NCBI RefSeq assembly: GCF_029960785.1
Contig: NZ_JASBQE010000005.1
Coordinates: 62,001 to 126,000, forward strand
Reading direction: 5' to 3'
DNA: 64,000 bases
From: Polyangium sp. 15x6
GTDB taxonomy: Bacteria > Myxococcota_A > Polyangia > Polyangiales > Polyangiaceae
A program made the translations under genes and the position numbers. The notes under the pieces were generated by a model. That model was not told the origin of the DNA. It made no database searches and was given only the letters and a program-made list of their open reading frames with translations. Below are positions 6,757 to 64,000 of this stretch, one piece after another (position 1 is the first letter of the stretch; each line of letters opens with the position of its first letter).

Positions 6757-8811
<2,055 letters not shown>

Positions 8812-8834: not shown

Positions 8835-8874
8835 AGGCTCCCCGCTCCCACCGAGCGGGGAGCCTTTTTCATTT
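8835..8874 (+). terminator. Intrinsic terminator of prkA
   Basis: A perfect 13-bp stem (8835-8847 pairing with 8853-8865) closes a five-base loop and runs into TTTTC and ATTTT. It lies 24 bases after the prkA stop and is a textbook rho-independent terminator. Confidence 0.93.
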
Positions 8875-62091: not shown

Positions 62092-62430
62092 CGTGCGCGG
62101 ATAGGCCGGGGGGGGCCGTCTTCATACGCCCTGCAAGCCGAGGGCCGCAAGGGAAGGCGCGCGGAACGCCCGGGGCGCGCGACGTTACCGGAGGGGCGTC
62201 CGCTCGTAAAGCGGAGGCGCGCCGCGGTCGTCCCCTGATTATGACGAACAATGTCCTACCTCGATTCCGCCGCTTTTTTCGGGGTAATCGCGGGACGCCG
62301 TTCGCCATTGCGGAACGCTATGTCGAACAATGTCCGACCAGCCCGAATCGTCAATGGACAATCGCGTCGAATGGGCGCACATTGGACGAACCAATCGCGA
62401 CGCGGTCGCGACGAATCGGAGGGCTTGGGC
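62092..62430. other. Intergenic region with related TTGT/GGAC motifs
   Basis: No gene is seen in these 339 bases between the divergent ABC exporter and VWA genes. It is less GC-rich than its surroundings near the middle. CGAACAATGTCC occurs at 62245-62256 and again at 62324-62335, and related half sites occur at about 62353 (CAATGGACAATCG) and 62382 (CATTGGACGAACC). The first two are imperfect palindromes GGACA-T-TGTTC on the opposite strand. It could be an operator region for either gene. Confidence 0.6.
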
Positions 62431-63507
62431 ATGATCGACAACAGGATCGAGGTCGTCTTCTCTTTCGACACCACCGGCAGCATGTACCCCTGCTTGACGC
62501 AGGTTCGTCGCAAGGTCGGCGAGACGGTGCGGCGATTGATGAAGGAGATCCCGGGCATCCGGATCGGCATCATCGCCCACGGCGATTATTGCGACGCCGG
62601 CTCGACGTACGTGACGAAGGCCCTCGACCTGACCGACGACGGCGACGCGATCGTGCGTTTCGTGGAAAAGGTCGGCCCCACGGGCGGCGGCGATGCGCCC
62701 GAGTGTTACGAGCTCGTTTTGCACGAGGCGCGGTCGATGTCGTGGACCAAGGGGTACACGAAGGTCTTCGTCCTCATCGGCGACGACGTGCCGCACGGCC
62801 CGAACCAGAACCCGAAGAAGCTCGATTGGCGCAGCGAGGTCGACGCGCTCGGCGCGGCCGGGATCCCGGTCTACGGCGTGCAATGCCTGGGTCGCCGTCA
62901 CGCGACGCCGTTCTACGCGGAGCTCGCGCGGAAGAGCGGCGGCTTCCACATCGGCCTCGACCAGTTCGCCTACGTGACCGACATGATCCTCGCGGTCTGC
63001 TACAAGCAATCGTCCGACGAGAAGCTCCAGGATTACGAGCGCGAGGTGAAGAAGCAGGGCCGCATGAACCGCGGCCTCGACAAGATGTTCGGCACGATGA
63101 TGAAGCGCGAGGCGTCCGCCGAATACGGCGACACCGACCTGCGCGCCGTGCCGCCCGGCCGATTCCAGGCGCTCGAGGTGGACCGCGACATGCCGATCAA
63201 GCAGTTCGTCCTGGAAAACGGCCTCACCTTCAAGGCGGGCCGCGGCTTCTACGAGTTCATGAAGACCGAGACGATCCAGGGGCACAAGGAGGTGGTGCTC
63301 ATGGATCGCAAGACCGGCGATCTCTACAGCGGCGAGCGCGCCCGCGAGATGCTCGGATTGCCGCCCGGCGCGACCGTGCGCATCAAGCCCGCGAGCCTGG
63401 AGAAGTACGTCGTGTTCGTGCAGAGCACCTCGTACAACCGCAAGCTCATCGGCGGCACGCGCTTCCTTTACGAGGTCGAGGACTGGGCCAAGGCCGAGGC
63501 CGCCTGA
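62431..63507 (+). CDS. VWA (von Willebrand A) domain protein
   Basis: A 358-residue soluble protein with a VWA domain at the N-terminus: VVFSFDTTGSMYPCL supplies the metal site (DTTGS in place of DxSxS), and Thr/Asp in GPTGGGDAPECYELVL and VFVLIGDDVPHGPN supply the rest. Residues about 190-358 contain a second domain with KGYTKVF, MKREASAEYGDTDLRAVPPGRFQALEV, FKAGRGFYEFMKTETIQGHKEVVLMDRKTGDLYSGERAREMLG. There is no signal peptide. GGAGGG precedes the ATG at 62431. VWA proteins often act in metal-dependent protein complexes or with MoxR ATPases; its partner is not adjacent. Confidence 0.88.
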   Translation: MIDNRIEVVFSFDTTGSMYPCLTQVRRKVGETVRRLMKEIPGIRIGIIAHGDYCDAGSTYVTKALDLTDDGDAIVRFVEKVGPTGGGDAPECYELVLHEARSMSWTKGYTKVFVLIGDDVPHGPNQNPKKLDWRSEVDALGAAGIPVYGVQCLGRRHATPFYAELARKSGGFHIGLDQFAYVTDMILAVCYKQSSDEKLQDYEREVKKQGRMNRGLDKMFGTMMKREASAEYGDTDLRAVPPGRFQALEVDRDMPIKQFVLENGLTFKAGRGFYEFMKTETIQGHKEVVLMDRKTGDLYSGERAREMLGLPPGATVRIKPASLEKYVVFVQSTSYNRKLIGGTRFLYEVEDWAKAEAA

Positions 63508-63552
63508 AACGCCCATCCGCCGCCGCGGACGCATTTCAAGGCTCGGGCTGCA

Positions 63553-63610
63553 TGCCTCCTGGGTCGGCGCCGGACGTGCTTACGTCTGCCGAAGACCGTC
63601 CCAGGAGGCA
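63553..63610 (+). promoter_or_regulatory. Strong 5' leader structure that can hide the ribosome-binding site
   Basis: TGCCTCCTGGG (63553-63563) and CCCAGGAGGCA (63600-63610) are perfectly complementary. The right arm contains the AGGAGG of the next gene (ATG 63614). Inside the loop are TCGGC/GCCGA (63564-63568 with 63588-63592) and GACGT/ACGTC (63573-63577 with 63582-63586), so the whole leader can form a stacked stem. This would block ribosome entry unless opened. It could also act as a terminator for the VWA gene, but no T tract follows. Confidence 0.7.
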
Positions 63611-63613
63611 AAC

Positions 63614-64000
63614 ATGCGCCGAAACCTCTTCCTGATTTCCGTGATCGCTGGTTTTGGCGTGGTGGGGTTCATCCCTTCCACGGCCCGGGCTGGCCTTTCG
63701 TTGAACGCCGACATGAACGTGGGGGTCGTGACGAGCGGCGGAGGCCCCGTCGGCGACGTCGGCAGTGGTATCGGCGGCCGGATCGGATATCGCGCGAACC
63801 TGGGGCCGTTCGCGATTACCCCGGAGCTCGGGGGATCCTACCTGCGCTTGAATGCGGTCGAGACCCCGATGCGCGGCGTCGCGGGGGCGCGCCTTTCCTT
63901 GCGCGGCGTGGTGCAACCCTCGATCTTCGCCCATTACGGGATCGCGATCGTGCAGCGGGATGTCCGCGGACCCACGTACGACCTGGGCGGAGCGGTCGAT
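63614..64000 (+). CDS. Predicted secreted/outer-membrane beta-barrel protein (3' truncated by window edge)
   Basis: The first 129 codons of a protein with a signal peptide (MRRNLFLISVIAGFGVVGFIPSTARA). The mature part alternates polar and aromatic or hydrophobic residues in short strands separated by Gly turns: LSLNADMNVGVVTS, GSGIGGRIGYRANLG, FAITPELGGSYLRL, GVAGARLSLRG, SIFAHYGIAIVQRDV, YDLGGAVD. This is typical of an outer-membrane beta-barrel. GGAGGCA lies before the ATG and is the arm of the perfect inverted repeat described above. The stop is beyond the window. Confidence 0.78.
   Translation, partial: MRRNLFLISVIAGFGVVGFIPSTARAGLSLNADMNVGVVTSGGGPVGDVGSGIGGRIGYRANLGPFAITPELGGSYLRLNAVETPMRGVAGARLSLRGVVQPSIFAHYGIAIVQRDVRGPTYDLGGAVD

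Follow-up and report, generated by a model that had tools for sequence, protein, structure and literature searches.

Control of read-through transcripts in insertion sequences such as IS10 and IS50 provides a parallel to the arrangement considered here; a literature search on read-through transposase RNA returned nothing useful and no paper for the IS10 or IS50 case. A closer system is the I-TevI gene of phage T4, in which, according to passages of PMC2988022, a stem hides the ribosome-binding site only in transcripts that come from an upstream promoter, while the RNA made from a nearby late promoter lacks enough of the stem. The present locus lies in a 64-kb window, the whole stretch of DNA that was analysed (G000:C231:62001-126000), from a 13.4-Mb genome of the genus Polyangium, family Polyangiaceae. 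Like I-TevI and similar T4 genes (as presented in passages of PMC2988022), it has a promoter, here a candidate, within a hairpin that may hide a Shine-Dalgarno (SD) sequence, and the T4-type hallmark of a gene's own start inside the hairpin would be matched if transcription begins at the predicted position, 63591, which falls between the arms. Unlike the T4 case, the Polyangium one is chromosomal and sigma-54-type, has an arm that is not found in all relatives, and is only predicted. If gating by the stem were true, the locus would be a chromosomal, sigma-54 counterpart of the phage T4 control, and an envelope protein would be placed strictly under its own activator.

Another group of comparators consists of RNA thermometers and SD-hiding riboswitches. 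As in these, the SD is paired within a stem; unlike them, the Polyangium stem stays closed up to 70 °C in the folding model, has no Rfam match, and has an arm that is not conserved. With respect to the promoter, the sigma-54 consensus is TGGCACG-N4-TTGC(T/A), as given in parts of PMC7910581 and PMC9765219. The Polyangium element resembles the sigma-54 promoters of pilA and MXAN881 in Myxococcus xanthus (parts of PMC9765219) in having GG and GC ten bases apart and GTGCT in the -12 element; it differs from M. xanthus sigma-54 promoters in its -24 element, which reads CGGCGCC or CGGCGTC and not TGGCACG, with scores of 9.05 or 6.2 bits. Consensus sigma-54 sites of Polyangium itself are located, in many cases, 24–34 nt before an SD-bearing start.

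The barrel gene and its inverted repeat

The gene that follows the repeat (forward strand, 63614 to 64000 and continuing past the window) encodes a barrel-like protein of 174 aa with a signal-peptide-like start; a family alignment comprises 21 members with 25–90% identity to its product. Eleven of the 21 match Pfam OMP_b-brl at E≤0.01, the 63614 product itself, scored as a partial sequence, reaches only E 0.029, and its identity as a barrel, which rests on the family, is likely. A profile search for a relative of solved structure gave a single, implausible match to an antibody light chain (E 0.005), which was rejected, and no paper on the gene was found among the best matches of a literature search. 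Upstream and co-directional is a VWA-domain gene (62431–63507, forward strand; Pfam VWA_4, 1.1e-6), the start of which was picked from its SD and conservation. In each of the six Polyangium species compared, the barrel gene follows the 3' end of this VWA gene, which is a possible source of read-through RNA.

An earlier note on this DNA had described a leader in which a perfect 11-bp inverted repeat, its arms 36 bases apart, holds the SD of an outer-membrane-type gene, and this description is accurate. The left arm, TGCCTCCTGGG (63553–63563, forward strand), which by prediction falls before the transcription start, and the right arm, CCCAGGAGGCA (63600–63610, forward strand), are perfectly complementary, and the latter includes the SD AGGAGG (63603–63608), followed by the start codon of the barrel gene at 63614; GGAGG is found in six of six species. 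Further stems that had been placed within the loop are also recovered, in that the minimum-energy fold of 63540–63640 (-50.4 kcal/mol) combines full pairing of the arms with extra stems between them. Shuffles of this segment (n=200) have a mean of -34.2 kcal/mol (sd 3.6) and none was equally stable, giving a z of -4.5. Arm length alone is unremarkable, because the GC-rich window has seven perfect inverted repeats that are 11 bp or longer and have a loop no larger than 60, vs 2–9 (mean 5.2) in 12 Markov-1 sequences used as composition controls. The unusual part of the repeat is that one of its arms is the SD. In the source genome, freeing the SD in an RNA with 80 nt upstream costs 14.3 kcal/mol, a value that was never reached when the sequence preceding 63591 was shuffled 200 times. 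A multi-copy element was considered and rejected: the leader (134 nt) has one match within its own genome, and the 17-nt box described below, allowing up to two mismatches, does not exceed its reversed control in number (63 vs 114 occurrences).

A conserved promoter-like box in the loop

Six Polyangium genomes were compared, namely the source of the window (G000) and five others (G001–G005) that carry the barrel gene at 84–90% protein identity and in a conserved gene order; a search for related loci returned two, in P. fumosum and Polyangium sp. 6x1. Among 17 upstream stretches comparable in all six, the leader is the least conserved, with 0.30 of its positions invariant vs 0.45–0.93 elsewhere, in a comparison based on crude gene calls that includes some stretches that are really coding. 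One block in this poorly conserved leader, at -49 to -33 (CGGCGYCGGAYRTGCTT; window 63565–63581), has 14 of its 17 columns invariant. This conserved box, CGGCGCCGGACGTGCTT (63565–63581, forward strand), contains a sigma-54-type -24 element (GG at 63566–63567) and -12 element (GC at 63578–63579), and the GG-N10-GC spacing is present in six of six species.

The left arm has fared differently: it is intact in two of the six Polyangium genomes (G000 and G004) and reduced in two more (G003 and G005) to seven pairs at the base followed by mismatches; G001 lacks the arm, and its G002 counterpart is not complementary. As judged by alignment, what all six species preserve is the promoter-like DNA box in the loop, not the left arm. 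Since that box is what evolution keeps, transcription from the gene's own promoter probably begins too far downstream for the hairpin to be included. Start sites placed from the box would give Polyangium leaders of 21, 23, or 24 nt, and this varying spacer between box and start fits a promoter because promoters permit such variation. In the source genome the predicted start, 12 nt past the C of the -12 element, would produce a 23-nt leader (63591–63613, forward strand), and the left arm would therefore be absent from the gene's own mRNA. A transcription start downstream of 63563, which the earlier note had weighed as the event that would remove the left arm from the mRNA, is now the more likely case, with 63591 predicted from the conserved box. 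No myxobacterial map of transcription starts was found among the best matches of a literature search.

How well the box matches sigma-54 promoters was assessed with a matrix built from 12 M. xanthus sites in Table 1 of PMC9765219 (a source drawn on in part), several of which are only putative there. Four species have the box at 9.05 bits, and G003 and G005 have it at 6.2, against 9.7 for the weakest training site; of the 163,000 positions that make up 81.5 kb, 38 equal or exceed 9.05 bits. The match to the consensus is moderate. Among 26 six-way upstream alignments comprising 3018 windows, the box is the only conserved sigma-54-like site, with none in the antisense scan, under cut-offs (a floor of 6.2 bits for each of the six species and of 9 for one of them) that were derived from the box itself. 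RpoN is encoded once in the genome (PF04552, E 1.2e-64).

Other kinds of promoter were also considered. A sigma-70-type promoter at TTACGTC (63580–63586) was rejected, as its bases differ in G003, G005, and G002, and a sigma-70 scan of 63300–63750, made with one consensus, found no site; an ECF-type promoter was set aside for a misfit in spacing that was judged by eye only. The strongest rival reading holds that the box is some other promoter or operator (ECF-type, primary-sigma, or a regulator's site) and that the repeat arose by chance in GC-rich DNA and does nothing in RNA. The seven such repeats in the window, against 2–9 in controls, would suit it, as would the moderate sigma-54 score in Polyangium and the lack of covariation, but the sigma-54 spacing is kept in six species, strong sigma-54 sites precede nine homologues, and the sigma-70 scan with its one consensus was empty, the ECF type having been judged by eye only. 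This reading is unlikely without being negligible.

The reading that we favour, and hold to be reasonably probable, is a sigma-54-type promoter with flanking arms that may mute the translation of read-through RNA. Under this proposal the leader would mainly be a promoter region, its -24/-12 promoter occupying the loop of the repeat (63565–63581). If sigma-54 is indeed used here in Polyangium, its RNA polymerase, activated by an enhancer-binding protein, would start at about 63591 and make an mRNA with a 23-nt leader; its AGGAGG would be freed for about 1 kcal/mol, and the mRNA would be translated normally. The left arm, being upstream of 63591, would reach RNA only through any transcription running in from the VWA gene, and in such RNA the 11-bp stem would cover the SD; the barrel protein would therefore come mainly from the gene's own promoter. 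In this way a speculative switch is replaced by a testable promoter and start site. The case also illustrates that, if only a single genome is read, complementary bases on either side of a promoter box can be mistaken for an RNA switch.

Accessibility of the Shine-Dalgarno sequence

The computed cost of opening the SD differs between the two kinds of RNA. For read-through RNA with 150 nt upstream, it is 16.5 kcal/mol in G000, 16.8 in G004, 9.9 in G003, 9.8 in G005, 9.1 in G002, and 9.6 in G001; for RNA from the predicted start, it is 1.0, 0.4, 3.6, 1.4, 1.7, and 0.9 kcal/mol, respectively. Forty SD-bearing starts of the region, the barrel gene included, have a mean of 5.5 kcal/mol (sd 2.7) at 150 nt upstream and 4.6 (sd 2.1) at 23 nt, and two of the other 39 (9.4 and 9.2 kcal/mol, the highest) reach the lower Polyangium values. 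In the source genome an RNA with 54 nt upstream needs 3.2 kcal/mol, and lengthening this to 60 nt, which brings in the left arm, raises the cost to 14.6.

When everything upstream of the predicted start was randomised in 80-nt RNAs (n=200), the observed cost was reached by no shuffle in G000, G004, or G001, by seven in G003, by eight in G005, and by 190 in G002. In G001 the box itself pairs with the start region, and shuffles that keep the box average 9.1 kcal/mol vs 9.6 observed. In G002 the cost is 1.3 kcal/mol with up to 80 nt upstream and rises to 7.4–9.4 only with 100–150 nt. Within the limits of the folding model, hiding of the SD in read-through RNA would be strong in two species; in three others it would be moderate, and in the last it is doubtful. 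The SD of the predicted mRNA is not wholly free because of weak pairing, its unpaired probability in G000 being only 0.19 at 37 °C. The model for this short RNA has the SD becoming less open with warming, up to 60 °C, an odd-looking trend that was not relied on.

These calculations also bear on the switch proposed in the earlier note, by which the stem keeps translation off until it is opened by a ligand, a factor, or heat. The first part stands in the model, where the SD would be locked whenever the RNA includes the left arm (unpaired probability 0.000–0.001 from 20 to 70 °C); opening by any of the three agents found no support. Heat opening lacks support, the modelled SD remaining paired up to 70 °C. 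A ligand-responsive, structured RNA is likewise disfavoured: no Rfam family matched at E≤1 across 63000–64000, none of the 23 pairs of the proposed structure is altered on both sides in the six-sequence alignment, pairing cells amount to 82.0% in the alignment vs 81.4% in shuffles, and RNAalifold on the six sequences returned no compensatory pair. It is therefore improbable that the main mRNA starts upstream of 63553 and that a regulatory leader is opened by one of these agents. Such a leader would be in keeping with the perfect arms, the z of -4.5, the SD within one arm, and the very large energy needed to open the SD of G000 and G004, but the left arm is lost in G001 and broken in G002, compensatory change and an Rfam match are both lacking, the SD remains paired at 70 °C, and a conserved promoter-like box occupies the loop. 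As for the broader claim that the barrel protein is under translational control, a form that depends on the start site is still conceivable. It is very improbable that the stem is the transcription terminator of the VWA gene, for although it is strong and begins 45 nt past that gene's stop codon, a T-run is absent, a terminator scan of 63300–63750 found none, and two genomes of unchanged gene order have the stem either absent (G001) or disrupted (G002).

Returning to the sigma-54-type promoter, we regard promoter activity as the main function, and on the modelled energies gating by the stem is possible. That hiding of the SD matters to the cell is rather doubtful.

Sigma-54 sites upstream of barrel homologues

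When 183 genomes of the order were searched with a profile, 40 of them yielded a total of 44 matches at E≤1e-6, and the scan took in the upstream region of every match. Nine of the 44 homologues are preceded by a site scoring 12 bits or higher (G102, G062, G104, G109, G008, G033, G121, G110, and G126); all nine are from genera other than Polyangium and they are not all independent, because G104, G109, and G110 share one genus. Control positions within these loci, of which 11 in 339,594 reach that score, set the expectation at about 0.4 such sites. The remaining 35 of 44, the six from Polyangium included, fall below 12 bits, and one of the 44 antisense scans reached that score (G110). Smaller earlier scans, of 22 and 24 of the 44 loci, gave an agreeing picture.

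In the eight strongest homologues, the predicted transcript starts lie 2–4 nt ahead of an in-frame ATG or GTG. Additional start codons are found in G102 and G008, each with an in-frame GTG immediately before the predicted start, and in G110, with an ATG 27 nt past it. A four-base SD word is absent from seven of the eight, and the exception, G033, has a GAGG that lies outside its predicted mRNA. As a special mark of leaderless homologues, absence of the SD was judged weak and rejected, since 18 of the 36 other homologues, at starts chosen by the analyst, are also without the four-base word. Longer leaders are predicted for G126 (16 nt), for G101a (14 nt), and for the six Polyangium genes (21–24 nt, with GGAGG).

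Possible short-leader sigma-54 sites in the Polyangiaceae

A similar pattern extends beyond the barrel family. In seven genomes of other genera, TGGCAC-N5-TTGCW followed by ATG at 4–34 nt gave 69 matches, a few of them counted twice with two ATGs following, and 35 of these fell at 11–15 nt, that is, in five of 31 lengths. Across 108 related genomes, all those of the family, in which matches are not independent events and ATG is a motif and not a confirmed gene start, TGGCAC-N5-TTGCT followed by ATG at 11–15 nt occurs 193 times in 102 non-Polyangium genomes and four times in the six from Polyangium. The corresponding counts are 59 and six with ATG at 41–45 nt, and 12 and two for the reversed 11–15 nt pattern. 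SD-led sigma-54 genes also exist outside Polyangium, because the sigma-54 pattern with GGAG before ATG occurs there 101 times (15 in Polyangium). Taken as motif counts, these figures suggest sigma-54 mRNAs with leaders of 1–5 nt outside Polyangium. In four Polyangium genomes TGGCACACGCGTTGCT recurs, followed by an ATG at a distance of just 5 nt: at G000:C232:71270-71293, and at similar places in G002, G003, and G004.

Leaderless mRNAs are described as common in Leptospira (parts of PMC5243855) and as occurring in Sinorhizobium (parts of PMC3616915), and in Deinococcus-Thermus they arise from -10 elements that adjoin ORFs (parts of PMC12340547). Leaderless mRNAs driven by sigma-54 in myxobacteria were not found among the best matches of a literature search. 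It is tempting to join the two sets of observations, such that translation in the barrel family would be tied to sigma-54 transcription in two ways: outside Polyangium through sigma-54 promoters with leaderless mRNAs, which would be common in the family, and in Polyangium through a 21–24-nt SD leader together with a stem that is present only in read-through RNA and does the same job. This joint reading is speculative and on the unlikely side. If the leaderless sigma-54 pattern in sister genera were confirmed, SD-less recognition of start codons would become testable in myxobacteria.

Other features of the window

Two further features of the window are worth recording. The leader of the VWA gene (62347–62430) has long blocks that are identical or nearly so in the six Polyangium species, and includes ATTGG-N5-CCAAT (62381–62395) and TCGCGAC-GCG-GTCGCGA (62395–62411); these blocks could represent an operator, a promoter, or an RNA element. 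Finally, a perfect 13-bp hairpin with a 5-nt loop is located at 8835–8865, 23 nt beyond a called gene that ends at 8811, and may be a terminator.
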